This document shows positions 3,249 through 60,769 of a stretch of DNA of 64,000 nucleotides, in pieces. Below the pieces are notes generated by a model. It was not told the origin of the DNA. It saw nothing but the letters and a program-made list of their open reading frames with translations, and did not search any database. The position numbers and the translations under genes are program-made. The stretch comes from Gemmatimonadaceae bacterium (GTDB taxonomy: Bacteria > Gemmatimonadota > Gemmatimonadetes > Gemmatimonadales > Gemmatimonadaceae): positions 186,001 to 250,000 of the forward strand of contig DASXUN010000021.1 of assembly GCA_036504815.1 (NCBI GenBank). The letters are read 5' to 3'. Each line of letters opens with the position of its first letter. Position 1 is the stretch's first letter.

Positions 3249-4847
3249 ATGACGCGTACCCGAAAGTCCCTGATCGCGCTTGTCGTCGTGGCAGCCCCCC
3301 TCTTGGCCGGCGGTTTCGTCATTCAGGAGCGGGCAACGCGCGATGGGGTGCGCCTGTTTGAGCAGGTGATGTCGGTCGTCGGCGACCGGTTCGTCGACTC
3401 CGTCAGCGCCGGCGTCCTGTACGAGAAAGCCGCGCGCGGACTCCTGCGCGAACTCAAGGATCCGTACACCGAGCTCTACACCCCCAAGCAGCTCGAGGCC
3501 TTCAACACGAACACCGGCGGCTTTTACGGTGGCGTGGGCATGCTCATCGAGGAGCAGGAAGGCAGCATCATCATCTCGAAGGTCTACCCGCATACCCCAG
3601 CCGAAGAGGCGGGCATCCATGAGGGAGACCGGATCATCCAGGTCGATACCGCCAGCACGCGTGGCTGGAAGCTTGACCAGGTCTCGTCGCGCCTGAAGGG
3701 TGAGCCGGGAACCAAGGTCACCGCCAAGTTCGCGCGGCCCGGATGGACGGAACCGATCAGCGCGACGTTTACGCGCCGTGTCATCCGCATTCCCGCCGTG
3801 CCATTCGCCATCATGCTGGACGGCAAGATCGGCTACATCCCCGTGCAGAACTTCAACGAGACGGCGTCTCCTGAGGTCGCCCAGCAGGTCATTCGCCTGC
3901 AGAACGAGGGGGCCAAGGGACTGGTGCTCGACCTGCGCGGCAACCCTGGCGGCTTCCTCGATCAGGCGCTCGAGATGTCCAACCTGTTCCTCGAGCGGGG
4001 CAAGGAAATTCTGAGTGTGCGCGACCGGCAGGGGGTTGCCGAACTTCACAAGGCGGAACGCGATCCGGTGGCCCTCAAGCTGCCGATGGTCATTCTCACC
4101 GATGCCTATACGGCCTCCGCCTCGGAGATCGTCGCGGGCGCCTTGCAGGACCACGATCGCGCGCTGATCGTCGGCACGACGTCCTTCGGCAAGGGTCTTG
4201 TGCAGTCGGTCTACCGCCTCGATGGCGGCTACGCGATCAAGCTCACGACCGGCAAGTGGTACACGCCGAGCGGCCGCTCCATCCAGAAGGAGCGCAAGCT
4301 GCTCGACGACGGCCAGTTCGTCGAGGTGCGCCCGGACAGCCTCGAGTCCGACTCGGTGCGCAAGTCGCGTCCGCGCTACAAGTCGGATGGCGGACGCGTC
4401 GTCTTCGGCGGCGGCGCCATCACGCCCGATGTCATCGTTCCGCCCGATACGCTGACCACCGCGGAACAGAAGGTCGCCCGTGTGCTCGGCTCCAAGGGAC
4501 AGGACACCTACATCACGCTGTACGACTTCGCGTTCGCGCGGAAATCGCAGGTCAAGCCGGATTTCGTCGTCACGCCGGCCATGCGCGACGAGTTCTACGA
4601 GAAGCTGCAGAAGAAGGGCGTCCTGGTTGACCGCAAGGACTGGGATGCGGCCCCGACGTACGTCGACCGATTGATCGACCTCAGGATCTCCCGCCTCGCC
4701 TTCGGTGATTCCACCGCCAAGCGGCGCGAAGTGAGTGACGACAATCAGTTGCTGAAGGCGCTGGAACTGCTCCGCAAGGGCCAGACGCAGCACGACCTTT
4801 TCACGCTGGCGTCGTCCATCCCCCAGACACTTCCCGGCAAGCGATGA
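3249..4847 (+). CDS. S41 C-terminal processing peptidase (CtpA/Prc type)
   Basis: 532-residue exported serine protease. Start ATG 3249 follows a GAAAGG ribosome-binding site and gives a clean signal or anchor (SLIALVVVAAPLLAGGFV); the in-frame ATG 3222 is less good. A PDZ domain covers about residues 90-180 (GVGMLIEEQEGSIIISKVYP, EEAGIHEGDRIIQVD). The catalytic core follows: LRGNPGGFLDQA, then nucleophile Ser290 in TASASEI and general base Lys315 in SFGKG, 25 residues apart as in Tsp. The protease would trim or degrade periplasmic proteins recognised by their C-termini. The next gene overlaps it by 4 nt (ATGA), so the two are translationally coupled. Confidence 0.93.
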   Translation: MTRTRKSLIALVVVAAPLLAGGFVIQERATRDGVRLFEQVMSVVGDRFVDSVSAGVLYEKAARGLLRELKDPYTELYTPKQLEAFNTNTGGFYGGVGMLIEEQEGSIIISKVYPHTPAEEAGIHEGDRIIQVDTASTRGWKLDQVSSRLKGEPGTKVTAKFARPGWTEPISATFTRRVIRIPAVPFAIMLDGKIGYIPVQNFNETASPEVAQQVIRLQNEGAKGLVLDLRGNPGGFLDQALEMSNLFLERGKEILSVRDRQGVAELHKAERDPVALKLPMVILTDAYTASASEIVAGALQDHDRALIVGTTSFGKGLVQSVYRLDGGYAIKLTTGKWYTPSGRSIQKERKLLDDGQFVEVRPDSLESDSVRKSRPRYKSDGGRVVFGGGAITPDVIVPPDTLTTAEQKVARVLGSKGQDTYITLYDFAFARKSQVKPDFVVTPAMRDEFYEKLQKKGVLVDRKDWDAAPTYVDRLIDLRISRLAFGDSTAKRREVSDDNQLLKALELLRKGQTQHDLFTLASSIPQTLPGKR

Positions 4848-5932
4848 GCTACCGCATCAGTTTCACCCTGTTCACCCTCTTCGCCGCCGCGGCGCTCGCC
4901 GCGGCGGTTCCACTGTCCGCCCAGCAGGTACGCTCCTACGCGCCGGAAAAGGGCGAGGTGCATCTCGCCAATCTCCGCCAGCTCACCAACGGCGGCGAGA
5001 ACGCCGAGGCGTACTGGAGCAAGGACAGCAAGTGGATCACGTTCCAGTCCACGCGCGATGGCCGGACATGCGACGAACAGTTTGTCATGAAAGCCGACGG
5101 CTCCGCCCTCAAGCGCATCAGCGACGGCCGCGGCAAGACGACCTGCGGATGGTTCTTCCCGGACGGCAAGCGGCTCTTCTTCGGATCCTCCACCGCGCAT
5201 GACTCGGCATGCCCACCGCGCCCCGATCCGTCCAAGGGCTACGTGTGGCCGCTCGACAAGTACGACATCTACACCGTCAACCGCGACGGCTCCAACTTCC
5301 GGCGCCTCACCAACTACAACGTCTACACCGCCGAGGGCGTCCTTTCGCCGGATGGCCGGAAGATCGTCTTCACGTCCCTCAAGGACGGCGACCTCGACAT
5401 CTACACCATGAATGTCGATGGCACCAACGTGAAGCGCCTCACCAGTACCGTGGGGTACGACGGCGGTCCGTGGTGGTCGCCGGATGGCAAGCGGATCGCC
5501 TATCGCGCGCACCATCCCAAGGACTCGGTGGAACTCAAGCAGTACAAGGACCTGCTCGCTCAGGGGCTGATTCGTCCGTCCAAGGTGGAGCTTTACGTGA
5601 TGAACGCCGACGGCAGCGACAACCGGCAGGTGACGGCGCTGGGCGGTGCGAACTTCGGTCCTTCGTGGACGCCCAATGGCAAGCAGATCATCTTCGCGTC
5701 CAATTTCTTTGCCCCGCGCTCGGGGAATTTCGAACTGTTCCTCGTTGACGCCGGCGCCGAGAAGGCCGGCGCCGACAAGCTCGAGCAGATCACGTTCAAT
5801 GAGACGTTCGACGGCTTCCCGATGTTCTCACCGGACGGCAAGAAGCTCATCTGGGCATCCAACCGCCACGACAACAAGCCAACGGAGACTAACATCTTCG
5901 TCGCCGATTGGATCAGGACGCCAAGGAAGTAG
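4844..5932 (+). CDS. Exported TolB-like PD40 beta-propeller protein
   Basis: 362 residues. A signal peptide (FTLFAAAALAAAVPLSAQQ) is followed by at least five PD40/TolB-type repeats, each with the pattern W/F-S-PDGK-I-F-S: AYWSKDSKWITFQSTRDG, LSPDGRKIVFTS, WWSPDGKRIAYRA, SWTPNGKQIIFASN and FSPDGKKLIWASNR. Such propellers bind peptides or proteins in the periplasm. No DPP-IV-type peptidase domain follows, so it is a propeller alone. The 4-nt overlap with the S41 protease suggests the two work on the same exported substrates, which is an inference. Confidence 0.85.
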   Translation: MSYRISFTLFTLFAAAALAAAVPLSAQQVRSYAPEKGEVHLANLRQLTNGGENAEAYWSKDSKWITFQSTRDGRTCDEQFVMKADGSALKRISDGRGKTTCGWFFPDGKRLFFGSSTAHDSACPPRPDPSKGYVWPLDKYDIYTVNRDGSNFRRLTNYNVYTAEGVLSPDGRKIVFTSLKDGDLDIYTMNVDGTNVKRLTSTVGYDGGPWWSPDGKRIAYRAHHPKDSVELKQYKDLLAQGLIRPSKVELYVMNADGSDNRQVTALGGANFGPSWTPNGKQIIFASNFFAPRSGNFELFLVDAGAEKAGADKLEQITFNETFDGFPMFSPDGKKLIWASNRHDNKPTETNIFVADWIRTPRK

Positions 5933-5950: not shown

Positions 5951-6120
5951 TTTTTCACCACGGAGCCACGGAGAACTGCCTGAGGGCCACGGAGGAAGTG
6001 CAACTTCTTGGGTGAACAGCGCGCGCCACGCAATGCTCTGCGTGGCACGATGTCGTTACCCCAAGTTGTGGTAGTTCTCCGTGGCCCTCCGTGTTCCTCC
6101 GTGCCTCCGTGGTGAAGAAA
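5951..6120. repeat. Palindromic CACGGAG repeat, copy 1
   Basis: A 170-bp imperfect inverted repeat. The left end reads TTTTTCACCACGGAGCCACGG and the right end CCGTGCCTCCGTGGTGAAGA, its near complement. Inside are a second pair (GGGCCACGGAG / CTCCGTGGCCC) and a central hairpin (CGCGCCACGCA / TGCGTGGCACG). It lies between the propeller gene and the SPFH gene. The same layout recurs at 13925, 29953 and 58438. Confidence 0.9.
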
Positions 6121-13185: not shown

Positions 13186-13917
13186 ATGCGACGCCTTTTC
13201 CTCGCCGTGCTCGCGTGGTGCGCTGCGCTTCCGGCGTCGGCTCAGACGGACACGACGGCGGCCCACGCGACCTTCCGCATCACGCCGCTCCGGCCGGTGG
13301 AGACCCTGCGCGCCGAAGCACTGTCCCTCTCGCCGCCAGCCGGCCTTACCGGGGCGAAAGCCGCCGACCTGGTGGAGCTCGTCACCCTCGATTCGACGAT
13401 ACAGCTCGAGATTCGCTACGCGACCACGAACAACTTCATGGGCGCGGCCATGTACTCGCAGGCCCGTGCGTTCCTGCAGCGCCCGGCCGCCGAGGCGCTG
13501 GTGCGCGCCCACCGGGCGCTCGCTCGCGAAGGGTTCGGATTGCGCATCCACGATGCCTACCGCCCGTGGTACGTGACGTGGATGTTCTGGGAGGCCACCC
13601 CTGATTCGCAGCGAACGTTCGTGGCGAATCCCGCCACTGGCTCGCGACACAACCGCGGCGCGGCGGTGGACCTCACGCTGTACGACCGGAGGACCGGCCG
13701 TGCCGTGCGCATGCCCAGCGGATACGATGAGTTCACCGAGCGTGCGTACGCGGAGTATCCCGGTGGCACCGCGGCCGAACGGGAACGGCGCGCGCTCCTG
13801 CGCCGGTACATGGAAGCCGAGGGATTCGTCGTGAATCCCACCGAGTGGTGGCACTTCGACTACCGCGGCTGGCGGGATTATCCCGTGCTCAACACCCCGT
13901 TCGAGCGGATGCGGTAG
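13186..13917 (+). CDS. Exported D-Ala-D-Ala dipeptidase (VanX/DdpX family, M15)
   Basis: 243 residues from ATG 13186, giving the signal peptide RRLFLAVLAWCAALPASAQ; an ATG at 13114 lies in the csp terminator. The zinc site and catalytic motifs of M15D are present: SRHNRGAAVDLTL (about residue 153), with H and D ligands, and EWWHFDYRGW (~220), with catalytic Glu and third ligand His. IRYATTNNFMG and LRIHDAYRPW are also family hallmarks. It hydrolyses D-Ala-D-Ala in the periplasm for peptidoglycan recycling. No vanH, vanA or regulator neighbours are seen, so vancomycin resistance is not implied. Confidence 0.9.
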   Translation: MRRLFLAVLAWCAALPASAQTDTTAAHATFRITPLRPVETLRAEALSLSPPAGLTGAKAADLVELVTLDSTIQLEIRYATTNNFMGAAMYSQARAFLQRPAAEALVRAHRALAREGFGLRIHDAYRPWYVTWMFWEATPDSQRTFVANPATGSRHNRGAAVDLTLYDRRTGRAVRMPSGYDEFTERAYAEYPGGTAAERERRALLRRYMEAEGFVVNPTEWWHFDYRGWRDYPVLNTPFERMR

Positions 13918-13924
13918 CGCTGGT

Positions 13925-14096
13925 CTTCTTCACCACGGAGACACGGAGAACTACCAGAGGGCCACGGAGAACTGGCACAACCAGGATAACGACATCGCGC
14001 CACGCAATGCATCGCGTGGCGCGCGCTGTTATCCAAGGAAGTTGGTCTTCTCCGTGGCCCTCAGGCTGTGCTCCGTGTCTCCGTGGTGAAGAAGGC
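13925..14096. repeat. Palindromic CACGGAG repeat, copy 2
   Basis: Same architecture as copy 1: CTTCTTCACCACGGAGACACGG at the left end and CCGTGTCTCCGTGGTGAAGAAG at the right, with central CGCGCCACGCA / TCGCGTGGCGCG. It starts 7 bases after the dipeptidase stop and ends 5 bases before the 3' end of the convergent gene at 14102, so it fills the whole space between two converging genes. Confidence 0.9.
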
Positions 14097-22151: not shown

Positions 22152-23192
22152 ATGCCCCCATCCCTCCGAGGTTCCGTGAACAGCTCCGGCAAGAAGGTCC
22201 CGGTCTGGGACAACATCCTGCTCCGCACGACGTTGTACTACCTCGTGCTCGGCGTCGCCGCCTACTGGATGGACGGGATTTCGGTGGGCGGCATCGGGTC
22301 GCAGGCCGGAATCGAGACGTTCAACGCACTGACCTCCAAGAAGGACCTCGTCACCGCATCGGGAGACTCCGGTCCCGCGGCCATTCACGCCGTGTTCGCG
22401 ATGCTGTCCGCCTTCCTCTTCGCCCTGCCCGTCGCCTGGGTGTATGTGCTCACCCGACAGAAGAAGGGGTACTCGCAGTCGGTCGTGCAGGCACTCATGG
22501 TGCTGCCCGTGGTGATCGCGGGCATCGTGGTCCTGGTGAAGTACTCGCTGATTCTGGCGTTTGCCCTTGGCGGCATCGTCGCGGCGGTGCGCTTCCGGAC
22601 GACGCTCGAGGACACCAAGGACGCCGCCGCCATCTTCTGCGTCACCGGCATCGGCCTGGCTTCCGCCGTCGATCCGGGAATCGCGGCGGTCCTGTCCGTC
22701 GGCTTCAACCTGCTTACCGTCGGCCTCTGGGCGACGGAGTTTGGCCGCTCGCCCGCCTCGCTCGAGGGCAGGCGCGCGCAGAAACAGCTCGAGCGCGCAC
22801 TCAGCATGGCCAGCCGGACGGGGACTTTCGTGGCCAAGATGGACGATGAGGTGCTGAAATCCCTCGCCCCAGAGCAGTTGGAGGCGCTGGCGGATCGCGC
22901 CTGGAAGCGCAAGAAGAAGATCGCCTCCGAAGCCGCCGACACGCCCCATCGCGAGTTTTCCTTTCTGCTGCGCGTCCCCTGCACCGATCCCGACGTGACG
23001 CGCCCCCTCATCGAGCCGGAGTTCGGCAGTCTGTTCAAGGACTGGAAATACATGGGCGCCGAGCGTGCCGATGACGGGTGTCGCATTGCGGAATACGGCG
23101 TGGAGCTGGCCGAGACGGTCACCCGCGGGGTGATCTTCGACGTTCTTCGTGCCGTGCCCGGCGCTGGGGTCAGTCGCGTGGAGCTACGATGA
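22152..23192 (+). CDS. DUF4956-type membrane protein
   Basis: 346 residues from ATG 22152; GTG 22176 is equally likely because CGAGG precedes it. Four membrane helices are visible (LLRTTLYYLVLGVAAYWM, AVFAMLSAFLFALPVAWVYV, LMVLPVVIAGIVVLVKYS, FCVTGIGLASAV..VLSVGFNLLTVG). The conserved DUF4956 loop is ALGGIVAAVRFRTTLEDTKD. A cytosolic C-terminal domain of about 150 residues follows. In other bacteria DUF4956 genes sit with VTC-type polyphosphate polymerase and CotH-kinase genes; here the next gene, overlapping by 4 nt, is CotH-like, so the pair is probably functional. No VTC gene is seen. Confidence 0.75.
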   Translation: MPPSLRGSVNSSGKKVPVWDNILLRTTLYYLVLGVAAYWMDGISVGGIGSQAGIETFNALTSKKDLVTASGDSGPAAIHAVFAMLSAFLFALPVAWVYVLTRQKKGYSQSVVQALMVLPVVIAGIVVLVKYSLILAFALGGIVAAVRFRTTLEDTKDAAAIFCVTGIGLASAVDPGIAAVLSVGFNLLTVGLWATEFGRSPASLEGRRAQKQLERALSMASRTGTFVAKMDDEVLKSLAPEQLEALADRAWKRKKKIASEAADTPHREFSFLLRVPCTDPDVTRPLIEPEFGSLFKDWKYMGAERADDGCRIAEYGVELAETVTRGVIFDVLRAVPGAGVSRVELR

Positions 23193-29526: not shown

Positions 29527-29543
29527 CATTGACGAGAATTTTT

Positions 29544-29924
29544 ATGCGCGCCGTTACAAGTGGAACCGCGGCCTTCGCGCTCGGTGTGGCCAAGAAGGAT
29601 CTCGACAACATCCTCTCTCGTTATCCCGTTCGGGGGATGGATCGTGGCAGGCAGGGGGTTCCACGCCGGCTTTCGTTCGCCAGCATTGAGCAGGTGGCCG
29701 TAGCCATCGACCTGACGCGCGTCTATGCGATTCCAACGCCCACCGCCTTGCTGCTGGCGGAAGAGGCCCTGAGCTCGAGAGAGGGCATCATCACCTCACC
29801 GGGTGGCCATCTGGCCATTCACGTTGATATCGAACGGATCCGCCGAGATTTGCAGGCCAAATTGACCGATGCCATCGAGAACGTCATTCCGCCCCGCCGT
29901 GGCCGGCCACCCGTGCGAGACTAG
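29544..29924 (+). CDS. Orphan protein with MerR-like DNA-binding layout
   Basis: 126 residues from ATG 29544; an in-frame TTG at 29529 is an alternative. The N-terminal half reads like a winged helix: TAAFALGVAKKDLDNILSRY, then RRLSFASIEQVAVAIDL and TALLLAEEAL, as in the helix-wing-helix of MerR proteins. The C-terminal part (IHVDIERIRRDLQAKLTDAI) is helical and ends RRGRPP, which resembles an AT-hook-like GRP. No close family is recognised. Its AT-rich promoter region and lack of partner suggest recent acquisition or an autonomous regulator. A palindromic repeat follows it. Confidence 0.5.
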   Translation: MRAVTSGTAAFALGVAKKDLDNILSRYPVRGMDRGRQGVPRRLSFASIEQVAVAIDLTRVYAIPTPTALLLAEEALSSREGIITSPGGHLAIHVDIERIRRDLQAKLTDAIENVIPPRRGRPPVRD

Positions 29925-29952: not shown

Positions 29953-30125
29953 TTTCTTCACTACGGAGGCACGGAGAACCGGCTGAGGGCCACGGAGAAC
30001 TACAATTCCTTGGGGTTACAACGCGTGCCGTCCAGGACATTGCGTGGCGCGATGTCGTTACCCCAAGCACTTGGAAGTTCTCCGTGGCCCTCAAGTAGTC
30101 CTCCGTGCCTCCGTGGTGAAGAAGG
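29953..30125. repeat. Palindromic CACGGAG repeat, copy 3
   Basis: TTTCTTCACTACGGAGGCACGG at the left end, CCGTGCCTCCGTGGTGAAGAA at the right, with GGGCCACGGAGAA / TTCTCCGTGGCCC in the middle arms. The centre here has CATTGCGTGGCGCGATG. It lies between the orphan gene and the convergent cold-shock gene. Confidence 0.9.
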
Positions 30126-30144
30126 CCTGAGATAGCCCCCAAAG

Positions 30145-30180
30145 TCGGAAAAGAAGAAGGGCCCCGGTTTCCCGGGGCCC
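30145..30180 (-). terminator. Intrinsic terminator of second csp gene
   Basis: Read on the minus strand, GGGCCCCGG pairs with CCGGGGCCC (30159-30167 with 30172-30180) around a 4-nt loop, followed by TTCTTCTTTT. It lies 29 bases after the csp stop. Confidence 0.85.
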
Positions 30181-30209
30181 TTCTGGACGGACGAACGGCA
30201 GAGTGAAGC

Positions 30210-30422
30210 TCAGCCGCCGACCTTGGTCACGTTCTCCGCGGCCGGGCCCTTCGCGCCCTGGACGATTTCGAACTCCACCGCATCGCCTTCGGCGAGCGAC
30301 TTGAAGCCCGAACCCTGAATGGCGCTGTAGTGCACGAAGCAGTCCTTGGTCCCGTTGTCAGGCGTAATAAAACCAAAGCCCTTCGCATCATTGAACCACT
30401 TCACCTTACCGGTCGTACGCAT
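30210..30422 (-). CDS. Cold-shock protein (CspA family), second copy
   Basis: 70 residues from ATG 30422, with AGGAGCAGGGA just before it. RNP1 is KGFGFIT and RNP2 is CFVHYSAI; the insert NGTKD before RNP2 is one residue longer than in the paralogue at 12899. The protein is an RNA chaperone. It has its own leader hairpins and terminator. Confidence 0.95.
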
Positions 30423-30553
30423 TCCCTGCTCCTGTTTTTCTTGATCGCTCGCTCGGGCCTGTCCCGAGTCAAAGACGATCGTAACTGTCACGGGTCCACT
30501 GGAGCCCCCCGCGCTGGGCTGGCACGAAAAAAAGACCCGGACGAACCAGGTCT
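30423..30553 (-). promoter_or_regulatory. Leader of second csp gene with internal terminator
   Basis: On the minus strand AGACCTGG / CCGGGTCT (30553 down to 30533, one G-T pair) is followed by seven T (30533-30527): a textbook intrinsic terminator 105 bases before the ATG. Downstream GATCG/CGATC encloses CTCGGG/CCCGAG (30468 down to 30452), close to the ribosome-binding site. The layout suggests an attenuator or a transcript ending just upstream; which one is untested. Confidence 0.5.
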
Positions 30554-53739: not shown

Positions 53740-55020
53740 TTAGAACGGCGTTTCGAGGCTCGTGCTCTGTGGTGTGAAGAGTTCCGCGCCCTCGTCGAGG
53801 ATATGCATGTCGTCCTCGAGGCGCACCCCGAACTCGCCGGGAATGTAGATCCCGGGTTCATCACTGAACGTCATGTGCGGCACCAGCGGCAGTGAGTTCC
53901 CCTTGACGAGGTACGGCCATTCATGCCCGTCCATGCCAAGTCCGTGCCCCACGCGATGACTGAAGTACTTGTACCCCGGACCGTATCCTGCATCGACGAT
54001 CACCTGGCGGGCGGCGGCATCCACGTCTCCGCAGGCCAGCCCCGGACGCGCCGTCTTCACGGCCGTTGTCTGGGCGCGATGCACGATCTCGAAAACGTCC
54101 TTCATCTTCTGTGTCGGCTTGCCGAGTACGAAGGTTCGGCTGAGATCGGAGCTGTAGCCTTCGACCTTGCAGCCGCCGTCTATCAGCAGGATTGAACCCT
54201 CGCGAATCACCTGGGGTGTCGCTGAGCCGTGCGGCAATGCCGAGTATTGGCCCACTTGAACGCCCGCCCCGCCGTCGAACCCAAGCTTGGTGTGGGCGCG
54301 GGCAACCAGGGCCGCGAACTCCCCCTGTGTCATTCCCTCACGCAGCGATTTCCAGGCAGCGGCATAGGCGGTCAGGGTCACCTGCGCCGCCAGACGCATC
54401 AGTGCGATCTCGTGTGCGTCCTTGACCGAACGGCAGCCAGCCGACACTGGCGTGGCACTGACAAGAGACATTTGCGGCAGTGCGTGCGCGGCACCGTCGG
54501 AGAACTGCCAGCGAACCGTTTCTTCCACACCGAGCACGCCCGTGGCGATCCCGCGGGCGCGAAGCCCTTTCGCCACCAGCGCGTACGGAGATTCGTCTTC
54601 CTCCCACGCCAGCACCTCGGTGCTGGAACCGAGCGGCCCCGTACGCGCCTGCTCGAGCGCCCGTTCCTCTTCGAATTTCGGCGTGACGAGAAAGGCATTC
54701 CCCTGCACCGGAATGATCACCGCGAGCAGGCGCTCGGAGATTCCCCAGCGCATGCCCGTGAAGTAGTCCATCGAGGTACCGCCGGTCAGCATCACGGCGT
54801 CGAGCTTGTTGGCGCGCATCAGCTGCCGGGCGCGTTCCAGGCGCTGTTGCCGTTCCGCGACGGTGATGGGTGAGGCTTGGCCGCGCATCGACTTCAGCGC
54901 CGCGATCGCTGGCGGATCATCGGTGAGCGGTGCGGCCATCGCCTCCGCCCGCGAGCTTGCGAGTACCGTCGTGGCGGCCGCCGTAGCGGAGAGACTGAAG
55001 AAATCGCGGCGGGATGTCAT
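53740..55020 (-). CDS. M24 family peptidase (Xaa-Pro type) with Tat signal
   Basis: 426 residues from ATG 55020. The start TSRRDFFSLSATAAATTVLA is a Tat signal, so it is exported folded. An N-terminal creatinase-like domain (~40-190: QLMRANKLDAVMLTGGTSMDY) precedes the pita-bread domain with DGGCKVEGYSSDLSRTF (two metal Asp), HRVGHGLGMDGHEWP (His), DEPGIY and RLEDDM (Glu). It would cleave Xaa-Pro dipeptides or N-terminal residues in the periplasm. A Tat signal implies metal loading before export. Confidence 0.9.
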   Translation of the reverse strand: MTSRRDFFSLSATAAATTVLASSRAEAMAAPLTDDPPAIAALKSMRGQASPITVAERQQRLERARQLMRANKLDAVMLTGGTSMDYFTGMRWGISERLLAVIIPVQGNAFLVTPKFEEERALEQARTGPLGSSTEVLAWEEDESPYALVAKGLRARGIATGVLGVEETVRWQFSDGAAHALPQMSLVSATPVSAGCRSVKDAHEIALMRLAAQVTLTAYAAAWKSLREGMTQGEFAALVARAHTKLGFDGGAGVQVGQYSALPHGSATPQVIREGSILLIDGGCKVEGYSSDLSRTFVLGKPTQKMKDVFEIVHRAQTTAVKTARPGLACGDVDAAARQVIVDAGYGPGYKYFSHRVGHGLGMDGHEWPYLVKGNSLPLVPHMTFSDEPGIYIPGEFGVRLEDDMHILDEGAELFTPQSTSLETPF

Positions 55021-58437: not shown

Positions 58438-58607
58438 TTTTTCACCGCGGAGGCACGGAGAGCTGCCCGAGCGCCACGGAGGAACTACCGCAACTGGGGT
58501 AACGACCACGCGCCACGCAGGATAGTGCGTGGCGCGCGTCGTAACCCCAGGAAGTTGCAGTTTCTCCGTGGCCCTCAGGTTCCTCTCCGTGCCTCCGTGG
58601 TGAGAAA
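58438..58607. repeat. Palindromic CACGGAG repeat, copy 4
   Basis: TTTTTCACCGCGGAGGCACGG at the left end, CCGTGCCTCCGTGGTGAGAAAG at the right; the centre has CGCGCCACGCA / TGCGTGGCGCG. It lies between the 3' end of the small barrel gene and the helicase start, both on the minus strand. It is downstream of the barrel gene. Confidence 0.9.
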
Positions 58608-58628: not shown

Positions 58629-59198
58629 TCAGTTGCCGCCGAAGAGGTAGAAGCTGGCCCCGACCGAGACACGCGAGCCAGTCGCTTCCACGCGGGACGC
58701 CGAGTAACCGCCGGTGTCATTGAACTTGCCGAACGTCCAGAGCAGGCCGCCGTCGATCGCCAGCTTGGGCGTCACCATGAACTGCGCGGTAAGTCCGGCG
58801 GTCGGGTTGGTCCCGCTGAAGTCGAAATCGCCCGTGGTGCCGTTGTAGATCTTCGAAGCGGCGGTGCGTCCCGTAATGCCGGCCGTCAGGTAGGTCTTCA
58901 GCGGGCCGGCGCCAATGAACCGCAGCCGTCCGAGCAGGTCCCACTGTCCGAGGTCGGTGTTACCTCCCGACGAACCCAGCGTGTTCTTGTCGTAGTTCAC
59001 GAGCACGCCGAGCGAGCTGCCCAGCGTCAATCCGGCATGAACGCCATAGCCGGACCCAAAGTCCAGATTCTGCGCCGCGTCCTTGTAGTTGAGCGAGGCA
59101 CCGGTCACCTGCGCACCGACGAACAGTCCGGTCTGTGCGTACGCCGGAACGGCGCCCAGCACGAGCAGTGAGGCGAGCATCAGCGTGAATCTCCGCAT
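58629..59198 (-). CDS. Small outer-membrane beta-barrel protein
   Basis: 189 residues from ATG 59198, with GGAGG before it. Signal RRFTLMLASLLVLGAVPAYAQ. About eight amphipathic strands (GLFVGAQVTGASLNY, YGVHAGLTLGSSLGVLVNYD, QWDLLGRLRFIGAG, LKTYLTAGITGR) and a Phe-containing C-terminal strand SVGASFYLF. The size resembles OmpX/OmpW-type barrels. No ligand site is visible. Confidence 0.75.
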   Translation of the reverse strand: MRRFTLMLASLLVLGAVPAYAQTGLFVGAQVTGASLNYKDAAQNLDFGSGYGVHAGLTLGSSLGVLVNYDKNTLGSSGGNTDLGQWDLLGRLRFIGAGPLKTYLTAGITGRTAASKIYNGTTGDFDFSGTNPTAGLTAQFMVTPKLAIDGGLLWTFGKFNDTGGYSASRVEATGSRVSVGASFYLFGGN

Positions 59199-59923: not shown

Positions 59924-60763
59924 ATGGATCGCGTCCGTGGACTGCGCCTTCTCTGGCTGACTTGTTGCGTGGGACTGGTGCTGTCGTGCGCCCGGCACTC
60001 GCGCGCACCACATCCGGATCTGGTGTTGCGGGTCATGACCTACAACATTCAGGCGGGCGGTGGCAGTCTCGAGAACATTGCCAACGTCATTCGCGCAGCC
60101 AATGCCGATCTCGTCGCCTTGCAGGAAGTTGACGTGCACTGGCACGCCCGCAGCGGCTTTGCGGATCAGGCGGCTGAACTTGCAGCCCGGCTCGGCATGA
60201 CCGCACGCTTCGCGCCGATCTATGTGCTTTCCGCCAGCGAGCCCGGCGTGCCGGCGCGCGAGTACGGCGTCGCCGTGCTGAGTCGTTATCCGGTGGTGGA
60301 GTTCACCAATCACGCGCTCACACGACTGTCCACACAGTCAGCGGGAGCGCCGCCAAGCCGGATGCCCGGATTCCTCGAAGCCGCTGTCGAGGTGCGCGGA
60401 GTCCGAATACGCGTCTTCAATACGCATCTCGATTATCGCGGCAATCCGTCCGTGCGACGGCAGCAGGTGATCGAGACACTGGCCGTCATCGGCACTGCGG
60501 AGATGCCCGTCCTGATGTTCGGCGACCTTAACGCCCCGCCGTCGGCTCCCGAACTGCAGCCGCTGTTCAGCCGTCTGCGCGATGCCTGGCCGGATTCACT
60601 TGGCGCCGGCTTTACGTACCCCGCCGTGAATCCCGTTCGTCGCATCGACTACGCGTTGGTGTCGAGTGCCTTTCGCGTGCTTGATGCTCGCGTGCTCGAT
60701 TCGCAAGCATCCGATCATCGGCCGCTGCTGGTGACGCTCCGTTTCCCCGTGTCTCCGTGGTGA
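59924..60763 (+). CDS. Endonuclease/exonuclease/phosphatase-fold lipoprotein
   Basis: 279 residues from ATG 59924. Lipobox LVLSC in the N-terminal helix, so it is outer- or inner-membrane anchored. EEP motifs: MTYNIQAGGG, LQEVD (metal Glu), HLDYRGN (His, Asp), FGDLNAPP, RIDYALVS and QASDHRPLL (His). This superfamily includes DNase I-like nucleases and sphingomyelinases; anchoring favours a secreted phosphodiesterase. Its last codons (FPVSPW) and TGA come from the half repeat described at 60746. Confidence 0.88.
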   Translation: MDRVRGLRLLWLTCCVGLVLSCARHSRAPHPDLVLRVMTYNIQAGGGSLENIANVIRAANADLVALQEVDVHWHARSGFADQAAELAARLGMTARFAPIYVLSASEPGVPAREYGVAVLSRYPVVEFTNHALTRLSTQSAGAPPSRMPGFLEAAVEVRGVRIRVFNTHLDYRGNPSVRRQQVIETLAVIGTAEMPVLMFGDLNAPPSAPELQPLFSRLRDAWPDSLGAGFTYPAVNPVRRIDYALVSSAFRVLDARVLDSQASDHRPLLVTLRFPVSPW

Positions 60764-60769
60764 AGAAGC
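60746..60769. repeat. Half copy of the palindromic repeat, overlapping the gene end
   Basis: CCCGTGTCTCCGTGGTGAAGAAG matches the right end of the full repeats (for example 14073-14095). No left arm is present. It contains the TGA of the upstream EEP gene, at 60761-60763. Confidence 0.8.

Follow-up and report, generated by a model that had tools for sequence, protein, structure and literature searches.

What are the long imperfect palindromes that recur at gene ends in this Gemmatimonadaceae genome, and what might have placed them there? The window (the whole 64-kb stretch of DNA that was analysed, C21:186001-250000) carries four of them, each ~163 bp long, and a remnant of a fifth (Table 1). 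Their plan is nested: the outer arms enclose middle arms (GGGCCACGGAG/CTCCGTGGCCC), and these in turn a core (GCGCCACGC/GCGTGGCGC). The four copies and their nested plan had been described in the original prediction, which also placed every copy between genes on the 3' side of at least one of them, and two copies between converging genes; all of these points were confirmed. The motif TTCACCACGGAG, with up to one mismatch allowed, is matched 10 times in the window against 0.27 matches expected. Copy 1 lies ~21 bp past the stop of a plus-strand gene (4844-5932), copy 2 no more than ~12 bp from the stop of a plus-strand gene ending at 13917, and the right-hand neighbour of copy 3 is a cold-shock-like ORF on the minus strand (30210-30491). 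Cold-shock-protein genes adjoin two copies in this genome (L010:4463-4945 and window 29957-30491), one on the 5' side and one on the 3' side. Rfam covariance models yielded no gathering-threshold match in the window.

Table 1. Coordinates, strand and orientation of the palindrome copies in the 64-kb window (position 1 is the first base of the window).
Feature	Coordinates	Strand	Orientation	Context
Copy 1	5954..6116	+	A	
Copy 1, outer arms	5954-5973 / 6097-6116			
Copy 1, middle arms	5984-5994 / 6077-6087			
Copy 1, core hairpin	~6022-6048			
Copy 2	13929..14090	-	B	between converging genes
Copy 3	29957..30120	+	A	between + gene 29529-29924 and converging ORF
Copy 4	58441..58604	-	B	3' end of - gene, stop at 58629
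Half copy (fifth, remnant)	~60736..60768	-		right arm only (GCTCCGTTTCCCCGTGTCTCCGTGGTGAAGAAG)

The genome-wide collection of copies proposed in the original prediction was assembled from the 3.5-Mb genome (31 contigs) by DNA search and manual collation, and comprises 40 copies: 39 are full, and a contig end truncates the remaining one. The copies share 73-85% identity with the query copy, and the distance between their outer arm ends is tightly kept at ~161-172 bp. TTCACCACGGAG occurs 68 times in the whole genome; the same pattern read backwards is absent. The asymmetry of the core defines two orientations, A (22 copies) and B (18 copies), with no bias by gene strand or replichore evident among the copies of this genome. 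A derivation of the family from the remnant of a coding gene was rejected, the copies being intergenic and variable in length and frame, with no ORF kept through them.

Folding of one strand of the palindrome gives -107 kcal/mol (z -12.2), far beyond shuffled sequences. Whichever strand is read, a T-run (CTTTTT) precedes the hairpin on its 5' side and no U-run comes after it; with this layout, the element is not a canonical intrinsic terminator. Compensating changes between the arms had originally been taken as a hint of selection for pairing. Within the genome the case for this is weaker than originally put, as the arms are near-invariant among the 39 full copies and covariation is consequently weak (two-sided changes in only 3 of 45 pairs, covariation term -0.16), and the example singled out in copy 3 proved to be a one-sided C to T change forming a G-U wobble. 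Once the copies of the sister species G005 were added, two-sided changes were found in 8 pairs and 19 cells, against a shuffle mean of 5.9 cells; arm pairing is kept. The same pairing would, however, also result if template switching or conversion homogenised the arms, and selection on the RNA is therefore not proven by it. Local homogenisation within the genome was rejected, as distance and similarity of the copies showed no correlation (Mantel r 0.08, p 0.79).

In a gap analysis relying on genes called by a simple script, the median distance of the copies was 16 bp to the closest gene 3' end versus 68 bp to 5' ends, bearing out the anticipated enrichment at stop codons. Among 37 gaps, 16 were converging, 19 co-directional and 2 diverging; compared to background gaps, converging ones were modestly enriched (p 0.014) and diverging ones depleted (p 0.06). 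Such a placement speaks for an element retained chiefly because it serves the host as a bidirectional 3'-end structure, be it a terminator-like or an RNA-stabilising hairpin, as do the depth of the fold and the two-sided changes across species. At several sites where a congener lacks the element, the gap in that congener folds into a stable hairpin of ordinary type (z -2 to -4.8), and our own flanks, taken without the element, have no such hairpin, from which it follows that the palindrome stands where a 3'-end hairpin would otherwise be. The site orthologous to copy 4 in the congener G003 is likewise empty and holds a long hairpin instead. Yet no U-run follows the hairpin on either strand, the same genes do without the element in G003 and in another congener, G006, avoidance of promoters would also yield a 3' bias, and the enrichment of convergent gaps is modest. 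The originally suggested role as a bidirectional terminator or RNA-stability element is supported insofar as the palindrome takes the place of 3' hairpins, and weakened by its non-canonical layout. We regard maintenance mainly for the benefit of the host as unlikely, a terminator function being possible as a secondary role.

Comparison with relatives points to gain or loss of copies within the genus. Eleven syntenic copies of our genome (244-303 kb) have no counterpart at the corresponding position in G003 and/or G006, and these empty sites substantiate the original suggestion of an interspersed, non-autonomous element. No target duplication was readable at the empty sites, the flanks of which are too diverged for this purpose (only ~80% identical). 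The closest of the relatives compared, based on five genes, is G005 (support 0.92), which carries the palindrome family too. About 13 of the 26 G005 copies examined sit at sites occupied in our genome, where fewer than one would be expected by chance (a rough estimate assuming 1,500 eligible gaps); the remaining copies are at sites devoid of a copy in our genome, two of which were demonstrated to be empty. The two copies at a shared site resemble each other no more than randomly paired copies do, and often they are oppositely oriented. The arms are species-specific, with a spacing between outer CACGGAG units of 1 base in our genome versus 2 in G005, and in G005 they are region-specific as well: copies of the origin region have an arm type of their own, nearly all exact matches to which fall on one 32-kb contig, and TTCATCACAGAGACAC arms are found almost only on the dnaN contig. 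Shared sites with species-specific arms reflect concerted evolution or recurrent replacement. Several of the G-labelled comparison genomes are fragmented. Relative to our genome, G005 also harbors an inversion with element remnants at both breakpoints (C27:16140-16230 and 23120-23150; L195 and L256), which match element sites 265324 and 272428 of our genome.

Two neighbouring copies in our genome enclose its single GxxExxY gene (PF13366; L010:9516-9908, minus strand), ~3 kb from dnaN, and no other short gene was found in such a position. The encoded protein scores 131-132 bits against curated cut-offs of 22 and 35 (TIGR04256 / PF13366), and the D..ExK signature of PD-(D/E)XK proteins is intact (D74, E84 and K86, residues that are invariant in A3), which suggests a nuclease-like protein of the PD-(D/E)XK fold with putative activity. 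The AlphaFold model of the protein was poor (pLDDT 52), too poor for a structure search, and a sequence search for a PDB relative found none, so that the assignment of nuclease activity relies on the Pfam family and the motif.

The copies themselves are concentrated around the same region. Contig C21, which accounts for 20% of the genome, carries 28 of the 40 copies; 7 copies lie within 10 kb of dnaN and 12 of 40 within 30 kb (binomial p ~2e-12), and copy density peaks at dnaN/dnaA (350/Mb within 10 kb), falling to ~4/Mb on other contigs. The dnaN contig of G005 is dense in copies as well. This distribution would fit sites around the replication origin that serve to organise or segregate the chromosome, a role that we nevertheless deem highly improbable: the copies are absent from G003 and G006, only some of the origin sites are common to G005, the palindrome families of a further genome, G025, are spread over the genome, and local spread from the nearby GxxExxY gene explains the cluster equally well. 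Clustering on the origin and clustering on this gene are indistinguishable. Since most intergenic gaps near dnaN are occupied in our genome (7 of ~11), the two copies beside the GxxExxY gene are weak evidence of a partnership when taken alone.

The association of GxxExxY genes with palindromes was apparent well beyond this genome. CACCACGGAGNCACGGAG recurs in Acidobacteriota, Planctomycetota, Chloroflexota and other phyla, where the loci number at least 120; 853 kb of such motif loci contained six GxxExxY matches, all six within 150 bp of arms, and in Acidobacteriota and Alphaproteobacteria GxxExxY genes stand between the same CACGGAG arms. The bracket is close at L148, L058 and L142, and L079 has two nested brackets. 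At L126, an internal-deletion derivative or intermediate, the start and the end of a GxxExxY gene are kept between full arms. In plasmids, no DNA related to the L148 unit was found. Among relatives, where 27 of 60 genomes possess a GxxExxY gene, long inverted repeats, highly varied in sequence, bracket 16 of 59 unique GxxExxY genes versus none of 154 control ORFs (Fisher p 2e-10; 27 of 4000 random intervals), and a palindrome lies within 600 bp of 23 of 57 GxxExxY genes versus 24 of 282 in the comparison. Most GxxExxY genes are without a two-sided bracket, and G006 retains the origin-proximal orthologue without any palindrome. In G025, arm GGACTGAAGAAGGACTGAAG has 365 occurrences, against none in five relatives, and palindromes with this arm stand on both sides of one GxxExxY gene; a second paralogue is flanked by another arm family with 12 matches in the genome, 3 of them at the gene. 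Further outer arms (CTCCACGTACGTG) were seen outside the GGACTGAAG arrays of G025 palindromes (L214, L224). When 66 GxxExxY proteins were placed in a tree, the 13 associated with CACRGAG arms all fell into one half (13 of 28 versus 0 of 38), and leaving out the four loci chosen by motif gave 9 of 24 versus 0 of 38 (p ~6e-5 by our own arithmetic); arm type thus follows the protein clade across phyla. The polarity of G-richness in the arms was 32 versus 9 over all bracketed loci, a figure that is partly method-dependent.

A PF13366 search returned no match in G001 or G057, two genomes with 24 and 11 palindrome copies, respectively. The gene is thus not needed at present in these genomes, and its presence as a genome-level requirement is contradicted. 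These two genomes lend themselves to a different reading, in which mobile palindromes are moved by some other activity, such as a transposase that escaped detection, recombination or repair by the host, or template switching (which may also homogenise arms), with GxxExxY and four-helix genes living as passengers inside or between hairpins. Genes of the unrelated four-helix S23/IVP family (PF05635), present in 51 of 60 relatives, are bracketed by similar inverted arrays even more often, in 26 of 30 cases from our genome and relatives (L002-L008, L267-L296), the brackets consisting of tandem units, mostly of ~7 bp, that differ at each locus (GGAGTCA, GGTGTCA, AGAGTTG, TAGGTGT and GGGCGAC, among others). 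Passengers, however, should not pair with the arms as GxxExxY proteins do, with arm sequence tracking the protein clade across phyla and two paralogues in one genome (G025) each having a palindrome family of its own, and we hold this reading to be rather unlikely.

On balance, it seems somewhat probable that the palindromes are non-autonomous interspersed repeats of a broad class, the arm sequence of which is tied to the small GxxExxY gene; GxxExxY may also be what mobilises them. The composite unit would consist of a GxxExxY gene between two palindromes or arms, and solo palindromes would be gene-less derivatives arising through internal deletion or through recombination between flanking palindromes. 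The inverted arms might extrude on DNA as a hairpin or cruciform, at which the GxxExxY nuclease would cut or nick its cognate arms; repair would then copy the palindrome to new sites and rewrite the arms of resident copies. Selection would leave copies at gene 3' ends, where the palindrome hairpin could substitute for a lost 3'-end hairpin. In a broader and more tentative proposal, bacteria could harbour a hitherto unrecognised class of hairpin elements, with GxxExxY and, in parallel, free-standing four-helix S23/IVP proteins as its active partners. Each protein lineage would have an arm unit of its own to recognise; it would copy hairpins to the 3' ends of genes and rewrite the resident copies all over the genome, leading to concerted evolution.

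Among known repeats, the 127-bp ERIC palindromes of enterobacteria are similarly long, imperfect and intergenic, located near gene ends and without a gene of their own; their sequence is unrelated to that of the present element, and they have, to our knowledge, no known partner gene. A MITE of a DDE transposon would share its terminal inverted repeats with an autonomous element of the same genome; the arms of the present family bracket GxxExxY genes in other phyla, and in our genome the one short gene seen between two neighbouring copies is GxxExxY. REP/REPIN sequences and their RAYT (TnpA-REP) are extragenic palindromes present in tens to hundreds of copies, with a repeat-flanked partner gene and non-autonomous copies (PMC3116915, PMC2817692, PMC8266576). 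By analogy, it is to these that the palindromes seem closest in the way they work, considering the many extragenic copies (40), their genome-specific sequence with species-specific arms and their non-autonomy. Unlike the 20-40-bp REP, however, the element is ~163 bp long with arms made of arrays of 7-8-bp units, and its partner would be a PD-(D/E)XK-fold protein rather than a Y1_Tnp (HUH) transposase. The REP-type transposase entertained in the original prediction was not found: a search for Y1_Tnp (PF01797) gave no match in our genome and was positive in 5 of 14 control genomes, and membership in REP/RAYT was rejected on this ground. The palindromes are thus best read as REPIN/RAYT-like repeats with a different nuclease partner. 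In 23S rRNA intervening sequences, a small S23/IVP four-helix ORF lies inside a stem of terminal inverted repeats, and these sequences have been called selfish, with a role in mobility proposed (PMC4990558). The present elements resemble them in the small ORF within an inverted-repeat stem and in the inverted arrays around PF05635 genes, and differ in being intergenic rather than located in rRNA and, for the family of our genome, in pairing with GxxExxY.

A literature search for a link between GxxExxY and repeats, most subscription journals being outside its reach, returned incidental mentions of GxxExxY only, and nothing relevant was found on CACGGAG repeats. GxxExxY and four-helix proteins form common, uncharacterised families, for which the link to palindromes provides a concrete hypothesis of function; if true, it would add a non-HUH partner to REP-like repeats and explain the CACGGAG repeats seen across many bacterial phyla. 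Marking rearrangement breakpoints and replacing native 3'-end hairpins, the copies shape genome structure and perhaps transcription. Where our genome has the copy next to dnaA, G006 carries a different repeat (AACAGAGAAACAACAGAGAAG; C157, ~53750-53830), which resembles the array around a four-helix gene of our genome (L002).
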